A stretch of 31,300 bases of DNA from a virus, in IMG/VR virus record IMGVR_UViG_3300018416_000065, positions 1 through 31,300 of that record; one strand, written 5' to 3'. The translations under genes and the position numbers were made by a program. Position 1 is the first letter of the stretch. Every line of letters begins with the position of its first letter. The notes beneath the pieces are model-generated. The model saw nothing but the letters and a program-made list of their open reading frames with translations, ran no database searches and was not told where the DNA came from. Positions 7,559-15,332 of this stretch are shown here, one piece after another.

Positions 7559-7588
7559 ATTGTACCCTAATTAGGTGGCGTAAGTCAA
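7559..7588 (-). promoter_or_regulatory. Internal sigma-70-like promoter
   Basis: On the - strand TTGACT (7588-7583), an 18-bp spacer and TACAAT (7564-7559) lie across the end of the polymerase gene, just upstream of the probable ssDNA-binding gene. It would boost the 3' half of the operon. Confidence 0.6.
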
Positions 7589-9736
7589 CTCTAATTCGTG
7601 TTGATCCAGCCAATTAATTCCGGCACTAATTTCGATGTCGAATGGAACAACTGACTTGTAGTTGAACCTCTTTTCCATCTCTTCATCTATCCCCGTCATG
7701 GCGATATGTAGTAGTTCTTTTACCTTTTCTAACTCGTCCTTGTGGCAATCAACCACAATACTGTCATGCACTGTTAAGATTAATTTACTCTTAAGTTTGT
7801 TCTCTCTGAACAGCCTTAGAGCGCGGATACAGGCCAATGGTACACAGTCTCCTGTGGCAAAGCCTTGTATGGGATAATTAACGATCTGCGTGGCATTTGT
7901 TACCCTACCATTTCTGGTACGAACAACATTAGGCCAGAAGTACTGCCGCCCACTAGGAACTTGGACAATACCATTCTTAAGAACCCCCGTCATTAGACGG
8001 TCTTGGTAGCTCCTAAGACCCTCGTAGATGTTAAAGAACTCAGCGAAGTATGTCTGTACGTGTGGTGGCTCTAAAGCACCCTGACCGCCATATAATGGAG
8101 CGAAAGAGTACTGCTTTGCTGCCTGTCTAGCATCCTTACTGACCTCAGAGGGATCACACTGATTAATAATGGAAGCAGTCTGCTTGTGGATGTCCTTTCC
8201 CTCAAGAATATCAGCAATAATCTGACTATCCCTACTTAATTCCCCAGCCATTCTAAATTCTAGGCCAGAGAAGTCTGCCTCAACCACCAGACCGTCATCT
8301 TTAAACCTAGACACGATAGCCTTCCGCACGGGAAAGCCTCTCTTGGGCTGGTTTTGTAGATTGGGATTACTACTACTTAATCTACCAGTGGCAGTGATAC
8401 ATTGATTGAAGTTAGCGTGTAGAAGCCCTGTAGACCGCGTACCTAGTTGTATTCCTTTAACGAAACTATCAAGGTAGGTGCTAATAGCATTCAGGCGACT
8501 GATCTTGGTCAAGAACTCTACCGCAACAGCGTTACCCTTGCCCTCAGCCTGTTGTACAAGCACCTTAATAGTATTCTTGTCAGTCTTAAAGCCGTTGATA
8601 GAAGCATAATAAGGTGACTTAGGCGTCATCTTTAGCCCAGCAGTCTCACCAGTGGCTACATAGATAGCACCAGCACCTGAACAGGTCTTACACTTGGTCC
8701 TGTTCTTATATGGCTCACCCTGAACCCTATACTTCTTGCCCATCTTAGTCTTAGTGACTTGCTTATACTTCTGTATTGATCCTCTACCATTACAGTCTGG
8801 ACACTTTCGAGCCACAGTCTTTTGAACGACAGCCGTAGTTGATCTAACAGCAGCAGAGAACTCCCGTGGCTTCATGCGCGGCGGCATCAAAGACTTACCC
8901 GCAGCATTTGTACCAATGTTGAACGTCTGTTGGTGGGCGTCTCTATTAATTACCTCACGCGAGTAGACCACCTTAGTCATGTCTGCACCACTATTTAAAT
9001 TAATAGGAGTGTCGCCCATGACTTCTTCAACTATCTCGTACAGCCGCTTAGTCAGTTCGTTCTTCTCAGTCTCAAACTGTAGCTCAACCTCTTCAAGAGT
9101 ATCCAGATCAATAGCTGTACCATTACGCTCAATCTCCACCAAGAACATGAGCATCTCGTTCATCAGATCGACTACAGGAATAAGCGACTTATTCTCTTCC
9201 TTCTCGTAATCTTCCATCTGGGCAACGTACAACTCAGCAGTGGTGCGAATATCAGCTTCAAGGTATTCCAGCATAGTGCCAACAGGCATCTCTTCAAAGC
9301 CAGTACCAGACTTGAACAGTTCATCTACAAGATCAGACTTCTTGAGGTTCTCTAGCTTACGCCGGATTCCACATTCCTTGAGCGACAGTGGACGCCTCTG
9401 CCCTTTGGACAGTAGATATTCGCCTATCATAGTGCAGTAAACACTGTCAGGGATACGGAAGCCCATCTCTAGGAGCCAGATAACATCAAACTTTGCATTG
9501 TGGCACACAAGCATAGACGCCTGATCCAAGGCATCCTGAAGCATCTCATGCTCGTCAGGCTCTATAACGTCATGGTGAAAGTATACATCCATATTGACAG
9601 TCATTTCACCGTCAAAGTTCAGGAACCCATATCCCGCAGCAACACACTTGTTTATTTTATTAAACGGGCTGTTGTCTATCTTTCCCTCGTATCTCTCGAC
9701 ACTGGTTTCAAGATCAAGAATTAAGATACTACTCAT
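7571..9736 (-). CDS. Family A DNA polymerase with DnaJ-like zinc finger
   Basis: Replicative polymerase with 3'-5' proofreading. Numbering is from the possible ATG at 9751 (726 residues). The exonuclease motifs are LDLET (D13, E15), HNAKFD (N85, D89) and YLEAD (Y163, D167). The polymerase motifs are A VEADFSG (D493), B R542-x3-K546-x3-F550-x3-Y554, and C VHDS (H662, D663). The residue matching E. coli Pol I F762 is Phe. Between the two parts (about 317-361) sit CPDCNGRG and CKTCSGAG, two CxxCxGxG units as in the DnaJ cysteine-rich domain; this insertion is a known mark of HMO-2011-type phages. I prefer the ATG at 9736 (MSSILILDLET) because GGAG lies nine bases upstream and it overlaps the zinc-ribbon gene's stop; ATG at 9751 lacks a ribosome site. 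Confidence 0.96.
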   Translation of the reverse strand: MSSILILDLETSVERYEGKIDNSPFNKINKCVAAGYGFLNFDGEMTVNMDVYFHHDVIEPDEHEMLQDALDQASMLVCHNAKFDVIWLLEMGFRIPDSVYCTMIGEYLLSKGQRRPLSLKECGIRRKLENLKKSDLVDELFKSGTGFEEMPVGTMLEYLEADIRTTAELYVAQMEDYEKEENKSLIPVVDLMNEMLMFLVEIERNGTAIDLDTLEEVELQFETEKNELTKRLYEIVEEVMGDTPINLNSGADMTKVVYSREVINRDAHQQTFNIGTNAAGKSLMPPRMKPREFSAAVRSTTAVVQKTVARKCPDCNGRGSIQKYKQVTKTKMGKKYRVQGEPYKNRTKCKTCSGAGAIYVATGETAGLKMTPKSPYYASINGFKTDKNTIKVLVQQAEGKGNAVAVEFLTKISRLNAISTYLDSFVKGIQLGTRSTGLLHANFNQCITATGRLSSSNPNLQNQPKRGFPVRKAIVSRFKDDGLVVEADFSGLEFRMAGELSRDSQIIADILEGKDIHKQTASIINQCDPSEVSKDARQAAKQYSFAPLYGGQGALEPPHVQTYFAEFFNIYEGLRSYQDRLMTGVLKNGIVQVPSGRQYFWPNVVRTRNGRVTNATQIVNYPIQGFATGDCVPLACIRALRLFRENKLKSKLILTVHDSIVVDCHKDELEKVKELLHIAMTGIDEEMEKRFNYKSVVPFDIEISAGINWLDQHELELTYAT

Positions 9737-9887
9737 CTTCTTCATCTCCATTCCAGTAAACGACTGTGCTTACTTTGCATTCAGAGCAGCTAAACGTGGA
9801 GTAGAAATCATATACATCATCGTCATGGTCGCCGCCCCAGATCATGGGTTTATTACAGCTTGGACATACATAATTCTCATACGACAT
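9729..9887 (-). CDS. Small zinc-ribbon protein (52 aa)
   Basis: A short gene between helicase and polymerase. The product begins MSYENYVCPSCNKPM and has CPSC (C8, C11) and CSEC (C34, C37), the four cysteines of a zinc ribbon, with an acidic HDDD segment between them and an acidic end (NGDEEDE). It overlaps the end of the helicase gene by 11 bases and the preferred start of the polymerase gene by eight, so it is embedded in the replication operon. It could be a small DNA- or protein-binding accessory of replication or a transcription regulator; no target can be read from the sequence. Confidence 0.75.
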   Translation of the reverse strand: MSYENYVCPSCNKPMIWGGDHDDDVYDFYSTFSCSECKVSTVVYWNGDEEDE

Positions 9888-11443: not shown

Positions 11444-11557
11444 TTAAAAAAATGAGTTAAGTATTTTAATTAACTTGAGTAGGTGGGCCAGTAGGGAGGC
11501 GAACACCATTGGTAACACGCACTCCAAAAAACCCAATGTGAAAATTACTCTGCACAT
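11444..11557 (-). CDS. Small hydrophobic, probably membrane peptide (37 aa)
   Basis: The ATG shares its A with the primase stop (TAATG), and GGAG lies a few bases upstream, which is good evidence for translation by coupling. The product begins MCRVIFTLGFLECVLPM and is nearly all hydrophobic up to the segment LLKLIKIL, enough for one membrane helix, with few charges (R3, K28, K31). Nothing similar is recognised. It could be a small membrane-active peptide or an early host-takeover factor; that is speculation. It is too short for most gene finders. Confidence 0.55.
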   Translation of the reverse strand: MCRVIFTLGFLECVLPMVFASLLAHLLKLIKILNSFF

Positions 11558-12324
11558 TAGTCTCCTTTAATCAATGTTTCAATTTGGTCAGTACTCATAT
11601 TCTTTAAGTCCACATTGGTTAATCTAACCTTAAGGCTTTTATCAACTTTCCTTGATTGAGCAATAGACTTTAACGCGGCATCTTTGTCAAGAACTAAATA
11701 CTTCTCAGGGTATTTACTAAGTGTTTTCTTAATACCTGTAGTGATGGTAGTACCTAACAGTGCTATACCTACAAGACCGTCCACTCTACTAACAGAACAA
11801 GCAGATGGGGTGTCTTCTACTAGTACAGCTATGTTTCCTAAGCCTACAGGAATACCGTCAGGGAGTTTACCGTAGCTAATCCACTTAGGACCATACTTAC
11901 TAAGTGCGCGTCCTACTGCCCCATGTGATCCTCTATTATAGAATAAGACTCTATCCTCAGCCGGAGCATACTTCACCTTGATCCACTTCTTCTGGTGAGC
12001 TTCAAAACTGTTCACCGACTTCAGGTATTCGATTGCTGGTGGGTGATTTTCTACAGCAGTGACAATCTCTGGTATAGGTCTGCCATTTGATCTATCCCTC
12101 TTCACATTGCTGAGATAGTCTTTGACTGATTGCTTACCACGATTGCCGTGATGTACTCCCTTGCCGTTACATGATGCGCGGTAGCAGTACCATAGAAGTT
12201 TACCGTCTAGCTTAGACAGAGCCAACTTCTTCTCGCCGTAGCAGAATGGACAGGTTATTACTTTTGTATCACCTTCCTTAATAGGAATGGCTTTAATAAT
12301 ATCTAACTGTTCTTGGTAGGTCAT
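11557..12324 (-). CDS. DNA primase, T7-like zinc finger plus TOPRIM
   Basis: 255 residues resembling the primase half of T7 gp4 without the helicase. The N-terminal zinc-binding motif has C25, C28 (CPFC), C47 and C52 (CYRASC), which would read the priming site on ssDNA. The TOPRIM fold has LVED (E170) and LVLDKD (D213, D215) for metal binding. It should make short RNA primers for the polymerase and must cooperate with the separate DnaB-like helicase. It is the first gene of its operon, with a promoter candidate at 12368-12395 and attP just upstream. The small hydrophobic gene is coupled to its stop. Confidence 0.88.
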   Translation of the reverse strand: MTYQEQLDIIKAIPIKEGDTKVITCPFCYGEKKLALSKLDGKLLWYCYRASCNGKGVHHGNRGKQSVKDYLSNVKRDRSNGRPIPEIVTAVENHPPAIEYLKSVNSFEAHQKKWIKVKYAPAEDRVLFYNRGSHGAVGRALSKYGPKWISYGKLPDGIPVGLGNIAVLVEDTPSACSVSRVDGLVGIALLGTTITTGIKKTLSKYPEKYLVLDKDAALKSIAQSRKVDKSLKVRLTNVDLKNMSTDQIETLIKGD

Positions 12325-12395: not shown

Positions 12396-12440
12396 CATCT
12401 AATAGAGAGCTTTTTTAACCAATTTACGGTCACAGTCAAT

Positions 12441-12561
12441 TAAACAAACTACCTGTAAGCTATTGATTTTAAACGATACCTGTTAATCAATTGGTCGTAG
12501 GTTCGATCCCTACCGCCGGAGCCATTCTCAATAAAATCAATAACTTACGGTAGTTTGTTTA
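12441..12561. repeat. Long inverted repeat framing the attP core
   Basis: The arm at 12441-12471 (TAAACAAACTACC, then T, GTAAG, C, TATTGATTTTA) is the reverse complement of 12532-12561 apart from one extra base and one mismatch, so 29 of 31 positions pair. The tRNA-like core at 12480-12524 lies almost exactly in the centre. The arms could be integrase arm-type binding sites, or the whole could form a cruciform or transcript hairpin. No coding is seen between 12325 and 12665. Confidence 0.85.
12480..12524 (+). other. attP: attP core: 3' half of a tRNA-Asn(GUU) gene
   Basis: The 45 bases read as the 3' half of tRNA-Asn: anticodon loop CTGTTAA, then TCAAT, variable loop TGGTC, T arm GTAGG-TTCGATC-CCTAC, acceptor strand CGCCGGA, discriminator G and CCA. 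The 5' half is absent: upstream bases do not pair with the anticodon stem or acceptor strand, so this is no working tRNA. Tyrosine integrases commonly use such tRNA 3' ends, with strand exchange near the anticodon loop; the phage copy restores the host tRNA after insertion. The integrase gene lies about 1.4 kb away, on the far side of thyX. The predicted host gene is a tRNA-Asn whose acceptor stem is TCCGGCG/CGCCGGA, a form typical of alphaproteobacteria. Confidence 0.85.
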
Positions 12562-12584
12562 GGTAAATGGCATGGCATATTAGT

Positions 12585-12605
12585 AAGTGGCACCGTGCCA
12601 TTTTT
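12585..12605 (+). terminator. Hairpin with T run between attP and thyX
   Basis: TGGCA, loop CCG, TGCCA and then TTTTT on the + strand. A wider pairing with GGTAAATGGCA from 12562 is also possible. It would stop + strand transcription running from attP towards thyX, for example from a host promoter in the integrated state. Two further mutually exclusive short stems (CTCTACC/GGTAGAG and CCAAAGG/CCTTTGG) lie at 12613-12664. Confidence 0.5.
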
Positions 12606-12665: not shown

Positions 12666-13334
12666 TTAGTTAGGTGGCGTAAGCAGAGCTTCCCAAGAAC
12701 TAGGGTATAGCTCACCCATAAGGTTACTAATCTCATTGGCAACCATGCGTGTCTCAGCTTGTGTGTCAGGGGCGCAACGAAGCCTACACATATCCGCAAA
12801 TGCATCTAAACTACCAGACCAGTACCATTCGGTCATCATGCTCTGTGGCAGCACCATACGGGCTTGTTCAGGACATACCCCTACGTCTAGTAGGAACTCA
12901 TACTCAGTCATTGCAATTTCATTAAAGCCGTTGTCAGATACAGTTACGTTACCTGCACTACCTTGCTTCTTATCAGCGCTACGTCCACGCCATACAGTTG
13001 GTGTGTAAAACTCAGGCTCATCGTCCACGTATCTCCTACTTATTTCATTCCAACGTAGGAACTTATGTTTAACTAATTGCCTAGCGACAAACACTGGTGC
13101 TTTAACGTGGAAGGATGCGAAGCAATGTCCGAATGGTGACAGGTGTTTATGCTTCGCAAGATACTTAATGAGCTTCTCATCCCTGTCTTCCAACACTGGT
13201 ATCTCTCCAGCCCAGTTGCCCATATGAATATCATAGGAGCCTATGAAATCACTCTTCTTCCCGAAGGATACCCGTGCTGAATTTACTACGGACAAATCAC
13301 TGCCCATATGTTCGATGTAAGTTGCTTTAATCAT
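12666..13334 (-). CDS. thyX: Flavin-dependent thymidylate synthase
   Basis: Makes dTMP from dUMP using FAD, NADPH and methylene-tetrahydrofolate, supplying thymidylate without DHFR-dependent ThyA. At 222 residues it has the usual length. The signature region is PVFVARQLVKHKFLRWNEISRRY (80-102): the family pattern RHRxxSxNExSxRY is changed to KHKFLRWNEISRRY, so both Arg of RHR are Lys (89, 91) and the first Ser is Arg94. Asn96, Glu97, Ser99, Arg101 and Tyr102 are kept. The C-terminal block ARMVLPQSMMTEWYWSGSL is typical. The gene overlaps its upstream neighbour by eight bases and is last in the integrase operon, ending beside the attP region. Confidence 0.93.
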   Translation of the reverse strand: MIKATYIEHMGSDLSVVNSARVSFGKKSDFIGSYDIHMGNWAGEIPVLEDRDEKLIKYLAKHKHLSPFGHCFASFHVKAPVFVARQLVKHKFLRWNEISRRYVDDEPEFYTPTVWRGRSADKKQGSAGNVTVSDNGFNEIAMTEYEFLLDVGVCPEQARMVLPQSMMTEWYWSGSLDAFADMCRLRCAPDTQAETRMVANEISNLMGELYPSSWEALLTPPN

Positions 13335-13542: not shown

Positions 13543-13685
13543 CAGAAAGGCGGCTCACCATTCTCGTCTAGCTCCGGCATCTTAAACGTGAAGTCACGTT
13601 CAATCTTAGGCTCCTGTTCTTCTTCTACAGGTAGAATGCCCATCAGCCGGAGTTCATGTTCAAGGCCCATTGGTAAATCTTCCAT
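13542..13685 (-). CDS. Hypothetical small acidic protein (47 aa)
   Basis: A short gene between the 69- and 71-residue genes. It starts in TAATG and ends in TGATG, so both boundaries show translational coupling. The product begins MEDLPMGLEHELRLMGI and is acidic (VEEEQEPKIE), ending NGEPPF; this look is like small phage adaptor proteins, but no family is recognised. The G/C-rich, charged coding pattern and tight junctions make it a likely real gene. Confidence 0.65.
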   Translation of the reverse strand: MEDLPMGLEHELRLMGILPVEEEQEPKIERDFTFKMPELDENGEPPF

Positions 13686-13894
13686 TAGGCCACCCTCTCG
13701 TAGACACGTTGTTCCCTTGTGCTAGTCCACTTAGCACCAATCCTGAGAGAGTTTAATTTAGCATTAGGCAACTGTGGCCCCATACATGCAAGGCGGTCTA
13801 CTTTGTTACCGCGAGTGTCGTACACCTCTATGACTTTGTATTTTTGTGAATGATCTAGTTCTAACAGCGGGTTTTTATCATAGTTCAAATCCAC
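13685..13894 (-). CDS. Hypothetical protein (69 aa), GTG start
   Basis: 69 residues, unknown. The start is GTG and overlaps the integrase stop (TAGTG). The protein has a beta-rich middle (YKVIEVYDTRGNKVDRLACM) and a basic C-terminus (KWTSTREQRVYERVA), a possible small nucleic-acid-binding or excisionase-like layout. It follows the integrase directly, where recombination directionality factors are often found, but no winged-helix signature is clear, so that idea is weak. Confidence 0.68.
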   Translation of the reverse strand: MDLNYDKNPLLELDHSQKYKVIEVYDTRGNKVDRLACMGPQLPNAKLNSLRIGAKWTSTREQRVYERVA

Positions 13895-15024
13895 TATAGG
13901 ATACCTCTTTTCTTCATTGCATTGGCTGCTTCGATGTTGCCTTGCTTGGCATACACGACAAGCATACTGGGGTTCTTATGGCCTGTTAGTGCCATTAGCT
14001 CACGGTCTGTACACCCTGCGCGAGAGGCATGGGTTGTACCCGTCCTTCGCAAATCATTTAACCAAATAGGTGTATACTTCTGAGAGCCATCCTCATTGTA
14101 GTGTCCGGCTAGAGGAACTTCTGGCAGACCATAATCTTTAGCCAATCTTCTAAACGACTTGACTGCGCGGTCTTGGGTGTAAGGTTTACCTGTGCTTTCT
14201 TCGCGTAAAATGAAATTGTCGTTGTTGCTGATACTATGCAACTCCAGACGTTTTCTTATGGATGGTGATACAGGAATAGACATACGAGTGCCAGTCTTTT
14301 CTTGCGTAAACTCAAAGCAATCTGTATCTAAATCGATGTTGCTCCACTGTAGTTTTCGAACATCTACAACACGCTGACATAGCTCATACAACATGGTGAT
14401 CATAGTACCCATGCTAGGTCTACCATTCTCATCACAGAACTTGATCATGCCAGTGATATGTTCGTCAGGCCATAAGACTTCACGGTCAGGCAGCTTTGGT
14501 AGTTTTAATAAGGAGAATGGGTTACTCTTGGCCTTTCCAGACCGAAGAGCTTCATTCCATACCAGCTTTAGCACCTTCACTGTGTGATTGGCTTTGTGTG
14601 TGGATACGTCAGACTGTATGTGTTGGTACAGTTTCTGGGCGTAGTTGTAGTCCACATTCGACACAAGCATTCTGCGAAATGTTGTGTTGCTTACGACAAC
14701 TTCAAGAACGTGTCTAAGGTGACCAAGGTATGATCTCTTAGTGCTTTCAGTCTTAATGTTGAGATAGGCATTAGATTGCTTGTAGGAGTTAACCATAGAC
14801 TCTACTGATCGATCATCTACGGTGACTTCCACATGATCATTAGCCAACCAAGCCTCATACTTACGCCGCCACTCGTAGCCACGCTCGTTAGCCTCAGTCT
14901 TAGTGTCATACGTCTCCCGAACTAACGCGGGAAACGCCTCAAGAAGTTTAGGGGTGGGTCTAACATCGTAGACCCGTTTGTTTTTGATATCTCGATATCG
15001 TACATAAGGAGCTTTAGCCATCAT
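13894..15024 (-). CDS. int: Tyrosine-family integrase
   Basis: Site-specific recombinase, expected to insert the phage into the host tRNA-Asn gene through the attP at 12480-12524. Numbered from the ATG at 15036 (380 residues): an N-terminal arm-binding-like region with basic residues (1-75), a SAM-like core-binding domain (about 77-180), and the catalytic domain with R222 (ELCQRVVDVRKL), K247 (QEKTGT), D-L-R330, H353 (GHKNP) and nucleophile Y362 (VVYAKQG). The His of the usual HxxR is Asn327 (LNDLRRTGTT). I place the start at 15024, where ATGA overlaps the upstream stop; ATG at 15036 or 15021 is also possible. It heads no operon of its own but is third in the leftward early operon. Confidence 0.93.
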   Translation of the reverse strand: MMAKAPYVRYRDIKNKRVYDVRPTPKLLEAFPALVRETYDTKTEANERGYEWRRKYEAWLANDHVEVTVDDRSVESMVNSYKQSNAYLNIKTESTKRSYLGHLRHVLEVVVSNTTFRRMLVSNVDYNYAQKLYQHIQSDVSTHKANHTVKVLKLVWNEALRSGKAKSNPFSLLKLPKLPDREVLWPDEHITGMIKFCDENGRPSMGTMITMLYELCQRVVDVRKLQWSNIDLDTDCFEFTQEKTGTRMSIPVSPSIRKRLELHSISNNDNFILREESTGKPYTQDRAVKSFRRLAKDYGLPEVPLAGHYNEDGSQKYTPIWLNDLRRTGTTHASRAGCTDRELMALTGHKNPSMLVVYAKQGNIEAANAMKKRGIL

Positions 15025-15332
15025 GCATTCACACATTGGCGGTTGTAGTTAATGAAATAGGCGATGCTTATCTCGTAGCTATCCACATCATGGGCGTAAA
15101 CGGCTTCTAAGGAACTTGCTACGGCCTGAACCTTCTGGAAAACCATTTCTTCAGAGAAATCTCTATCGTATCCGAAGTTCATTGGTATGGCAGTCAGCAC
15201 CTCTTTCCAGTGCTTGTATTTTGTGCATTCCTTATCTGTAGGATTAGTCTTCTCCCAACGGTTTTCATAGACAAACACTACGGCATCGTTGTGATCCCAG
15301 ACTTTTACTTTGTAGGTCTTATCCGCAATCAT
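15021..15332 (-). CDS. Hypothetical protein (103 aa)
   Basis: 103 residues, not recognised. The N-terminus is beta-like (YKVKVWDHNDAVVFVYENRW), followed by a helical region that holds most of the charges. It overlaps the upstream gene by ATGA and the integrase start in the same way. Placement at the front of the early operon suggests an early regulatory or host-takeover function; nothing in the sequence proves it. Confidence 0.75.
   Translation of the reverse strand: MIADKTYKVKVWDHNDAVVFVYENRWEKTNPTDKECTKYKHWKEVLTAIPMNFGYDRDFSEEMVFQKVQAVASSLEAVYAHDVDSYEISIAYFINYNRQCVNA

Follow-up and report, generated by a model that had tools for sequence, protein, structure and literature searches.

The 3′ half of a tRNA-Asn gene as the probable attachment site of a temperate HMO-2011-type roseophage

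The window, by which we mean the whole stretch of 31,300 nucleotides of viral DNA analyzed here, carries CTGTTAATCAATTGGTCGTAGGTTCGATCCCTACCGCCGGAGCCA at positions 12480–12524 (+ strand), which by sequence match corresponds to the last 45 nt of a tRNA-Asn(GUU) gene, from the anticodon loop to CCA, and is treated as the putative attP core. Its parts follow in order as the anticodon loop CTGTTAA, the first base of which is the start of the core, the 3′ strand of the anticodon stem, the variable loop, a T arm with 5/5 pairs, the acceptor strand CGCCGGA, G73, and CCA. No complete tRNA was detected in the window by ARAGORN or Rfam, and the core thus stands without a 5′ half, as claimed in the sequence-only reading of this DNA. 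The core sits in a 341-base gap between a DNA primase gene (11557–12324, − strand), with attP directly upstream of it as in relatives, and thyX (12666–13334, − strand), which lies between attP and the gene for a 380-aa tyrosine integrase (13894–15036, − strand; PF00589). The integrase gene was found to be 1370 bp from the core, matching the earlier figure of 1.4 kb. The integrase gene looks intact: the catalytic residues R222, K247, R330, H353, and Y362 were all present, and the first His of its HxxR box, variable across the family, is Asn. A structural model of moderate quality (whole-model mean pLDDT, 67.8) predicted a beta-beta-beta-alpha N-terminus (pLDDT, ~80) that would resemble an arm-binding domain, as would be expected, and the integrase profile matched no PDB sequence. 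A 69-aa open reading frame adjoining int (13685–13894, − strand) is kept in near relatives and had no family match; from its position, it is a candidate excisionase. Neither a repressor nor an excisionase was recognized among the open reading frames scanned.

The hallmark of HMO-2011-type phages is a DNA polymerase A with an inserted DnaJ-like domain carrying two CXXCXGXG motifs (PMC9038755, PMC6918029). The polymerase of the window (7571–9751, − strand; assigned by Pfam and motifs) has this hallmark in the form of CPDCNGRG and CKTCSGAG. Its primase, helicase, and polymerase resembled those of HMO-2011-type isolates in direct comparison, and TerL and the portal protein were identified by Pfam only. 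The best DNA match of the window was CRP-738, in agreement with the integrase tree, and judging from these sequences the phage would fit subgroup III. In subgroups I and III, an integrase is reported for most members, with CRP-3 cited as the demonstrated case (PMC9038755).

The core was identical to the tRNA-Asn of Rhodobacteraceae at 45/45 positions, whereas the best non-Asn tRNA among the other tRNAs recovered from the same host genomes, a tRNA-Lys, matched at 30/45; at the sequence level, an exact match over 45 nt rules out chance. Bacterial genome contigs yielded at least 119 stretches with an exact copy, under titles that named Rhodobacteraceae genera, roseobacters, and a few metagenome-assembled genomes labeled only as Alphaproteobacteria. 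The earlier prediction of a host tRNA-Asn beginning with TCCGGCG and sharing the identical 45-base 3′ end was borne out, as this 5′ end was found upstream in 105 of the 123 exact copies examined (TCCGGCG...CGCCGGA-GCCA), with a further two cut by locus ends and one carrying TCCGGTG. The full host gene, TCCGGCGTAGCTCAGCGGTAGAGCAGTTGACTGTTAATCAATTGGTCGTAGGTTCGATCCCTACCGCCGGAGCCA, was called as tRNA-Asn(gtt) by ARAGORN. As a separate observation, the other 15 of the 123 copies are tRNA-Asn 3′ ends without a 5′ half (L017, L018, L021, L022, L052, L057, L058, L065, L072, L075, L094, L100, L102, L108, and L112); they resemble scars of other integrated elements, which suggests that, in Rhodobacteraceae, tRNA-Asn serves as a hot spot of integration.

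Matches with up to three mismatches to the core were found in 4 of the 289 alphaproteobacterial genomes sampled, and all were Rhodobacteraceae (Pseudooceanicola batsensis and three that reappear in the Rhodobacteraceae sample). Within that family, the gene or a close allele was present in 120/149 genomes. These distributions point to a member of Rhodobacteraceae as the phage host and no finer than family, since most of the family has the same allele; the host prediction made from the core therefore holds for the family and for nothing below it.

The core or an allele of it was found in 34 IMG/VR loci with HMO-type genes, in one copy each and with position and orientation relative to the primase as in the window. 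The DNA outside the core has largely diverged among these relatives while the core is conserved, and their integrases, where the contig includes one, are 47% to 100% identical to that of the window (mostly 58–70%). Most phage core variants are exact host Rhodobacteraceae tRNA-Asn alleles: that of L224 (T for G in the variable loop) is exact in host genomes G381, G325, and G311, and that of L221 and L222 (GACCCC with CGTCGGA) in G305 and G386. The cultured HMO-2011-type roseophage CRP-738 (MZ892992; host, FZCC0089) carries the core at 2934–2978, upstream of the primase, with two changes that are paired in the T stem (GTTGG/CCAAC). This allele, also found in L228 to L232, occurred in 2/296 genomes of the family (G476 and G492), both with a complete tRNA-Asn carrying it according to ARAGORN. 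In two loci, L225 (IMGVR_UViG_3300020409_000031) and L226 (IMGVR_UViG_3300029319_000066), identity with tRNA-Asn begins at position 36 and the first four loop bases are absent, which may reflect a different exchange point or a decaying site. A T-arm scan of the fetched locus of L227 (IMGVR_UViG_3300012953_002512) found no tRNA core, though its integrase falls in the Asn clade, so its attP would be elsewhere or lost. The same scan found no core in the stretches examined of the subgroup I phages HMO-2011, CRP-1, CRP-2, and CRP-207, suggesting that their sites lie elsewhere or are of another type.

The core is flanked by an inverted repeat with arms of about 30 bases, including a 17-nt ungapped part, the left arm being TAAACAAACTACCTGTAAGCTATTGATTTTA (12441–12471, + strand) and the right arm reading TAAAATCAATAACTTACGGTAGTTTGTTTA on the + strand (12532–12561, − strand). 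None of 2,000 shuffles scored as well. L226, CRP-738, and L124 likewise have a strong repeat, which is weak or absent in the other lineages. The arms of the repeat are likely binding sites for the integrase or accessory proteins. Upstream of the core, relatives repeatedly show a GTAAGYYATTGATTTTAAA-like motif, and in the majority of 10 distinct lineages GTAAGYYATTGATTTTAAA and, farther out, GTTAACAG occur at constant spacing. The window counterpart of the latter is GGTCACAG (12428–12435), with GTTAACAG/GATAACAG at the equivalent distance from the core in other lineages, fixed at 45–52 bases upstream in diverged ones; it may be an accessory attP site or a primase promoter. On the other side, a second inverted repeat (AAATGGCATGG/CCGTGCCATTT) was noted at 12565–12603 of the window, and the TGGCATGGCA motif is shared by many relatives on the downstream side of attP.

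The integrase tree resolves two sister clades, the tRNA-Asn clade (support, 100/99) and one with CRP-3 (MK613345), CRP-235, and CRP-212 (98/96). In the place and orientation corresponding to those of the core, these three phages carry CCTGAAGGTCG..CCCGCAACCA; this is the 3′ half of a tRNA-Met(CAT) of the initiator type. Integration of CRP-3 into the tRNA-Met(CAT) of FZCC0040 was demonstrated in 2019 with hybrid sequencing reads and PCR (PMC6918029). In this one tested case, the tRNA 3′ half at this place predicts the target correctly, because CRP-3 has the fMet half and integrates at tRNA-Met. Integrated relatives at a site other than tRNA-Asn had been named as a possible objection; none with the attP of the window was found, and the published position of CRP-3 at tRNA-Met fits the attP rule, as its own attP has the tRNA-fMet fragment. 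The T stem GTAGG, common to the Asn and fMet cores, was considered as a cause of target switching, and this idea was abandoned on finding a different T stem in the single host fMet gene recovered.

Collectively, the exact core, the roughly 35 relatives that carry it at the same place, the inverted repeat, and a sister fMet clade that includes the integrating CRP-3 make it very probable that the site serves a temperate HMO-2011-type roseophage as its functional attP, with integration itself argued by homology with CRP-3. The claim of a temperate-phage attP in the sequence-only reading was thus upheld by the exact host gene and the shared core position. We assign a probability of about 93% to the reading of this site as attP in a temperate HMO-2011-type podophage that has a host in Rhodobacteraceae (Roseobacter group) and an integrase that recombines the core with host tRNA-Asn. 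The integrase would bind arm sites flanking the core and recombine it with the identical 3′ part of the host tRNA-Asn(GUU) gene, presumably with the exchange point at the anticodon loop or directly 3′ of it. The phage copy would replace the displaced host 3′ half, so that the tRNA gene would stay intact on the thyX/int side, and a tRNA half-copy would be left on the primase side.

The stretch identical to the target tRNA opens at position 32 in the window and in the majority of relatives, whereas L225 and L226 match from 36 onward and the fMet clade from 35 or 39; in every case, the start falls within the anticodon loop or immediately 3′ of it, which places the exchange there or farther 3′. 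A variant compatible with this attP reading puts the exchange in the T arm instead. The varying start of identity, at a similar distance from an upstream ATTGAT motif, speaks for this variant, but identity starts at C32 in 9/10 distinct Asn-type flanks, as expected if the anticodon loop lies in the overlap, and we regard T-arm exchange as rather unlikely.

Our searches for prophages with attL/attR at tRNA-Asn, proposed earlier as a check, were negative throughout. A close integrase relative was found in 0/395 Rhodobacteraceae genomes; no HMO-type polymerase was found in these 395 genomes, the matches listed all being host-type with ≤32% identity over the C-terminal region; HMO-type genes or phage flanks occurred near host tRNA-Asn in 0/130 loci (with one short chance RNR match); and all 34 HMO loci with the core in IMG/VR were in the free attP form, with no joined forms. 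Twelve genomes congeneric with a single-cell genome of small assembly size also yielded no integrase relative. These prophage searches were run without a positive control genome. Judging from genome sizes, streamlined pelagic roseobacters are probably few among the genomes sampled; a rare lysogen could thus have been missed, and the absence of attL/attR is not decisive. A phage of temperate ancestry that has kept its site and integrase and is now effectively lytic would account for the lack of lysogens in the 395 host-family genomes, the absence of a recognizable repressor, and the attP form of every contig. However, across lineages whose integrases mostly share 58–70% identity with that of the window, the core either shows 100% conservation or equals a host allele, the catalytic residues are in place, the experimentally tested relative CRP-3 integrates (PMC6918029), and lysogens of oligotrophic hosts are under-sampled, leaving such a relic improbable. 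That the core is the remnant of a complete translational tRNA-Asn gene, of a kind that exists in some phages, and no recombination site at all can be practically dismissed, as a 5′ half was found in 0/34 related loci, the anticodon loop is invariably where the copy begins, the flanking motifs recur, and an integrase is nearby.

The HMO-2011-type phages rank among the most abundant groups of marine phages. The earlier reading had held that such phages are mostly studied as lytic and that lysogeny would matter; lysogeny is not new here, having been shown for CRP-3 in 2019 (PMC6918029). In the portions of the HMO-2011-type literature covered here, CRP-3 has the only demonstrated integration site, and a tRNA-Asn target appears to be unreported for the group. 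The term attP is absent from the main text of PMC9038755, in which CRP-738 is named in the isolate table only and no attachment site is described for it, and none is annotated in MZ892992. For a second clade, our result names the target at the sequence level, tRNA-Asn, and the host at the family level. A broader suggestion, less likely than not, is that a widespread tRNA-Asn clade exists apart from the fMet clade, that attP alleles such as the rare GTTGG/CCAAC follow host tRNA alleles closely enough to narrow the host below family, and that free attP dominates owing to very rare or short-lived lysogeny. The cultured pair of CRP-738 and FZCC0089 allows a direct lysogeny test.

In tyrosine integrases of the P22, HP1, and P4 type, the attP core is the 3′ part of a tRNA gene, which is restored upon integration. 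A tRNA-half attP with an integrase is a known kind of site, by which many phages enter the bacterial chromosome and leave it unbroken; the site in the window is an ordinary, well-supported attP that differs from these systems only by ordinary variation, namely, its tRNA-Asn target and HMO-2011-type genome. CRP-738 shares with the window the gene order around int and primase, the tRNA-Asn core upstream of the primase, and an integrase of 66% identity, but differs in the two paired T-stem changes and in having no thyX between attP and int. CRP-3, CRP-235, and CRP-212 are likewise HMO-2011-type phages with a tRNA 3′ half as attP at the same place and in the same orientation, whereas their core is of the fMet type, their integrases are 31–35% identical to that of the window, and tRNA identity starts 3′ of its start in the window. 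The CRP-810-type phages, also a marine roseophage group, integrate at a tRNA, as confirmed there by experiment and proposed here from sequence, but they form a separate phage family with a tRNA-Thr target and a 13-bp core (PMC11288001).
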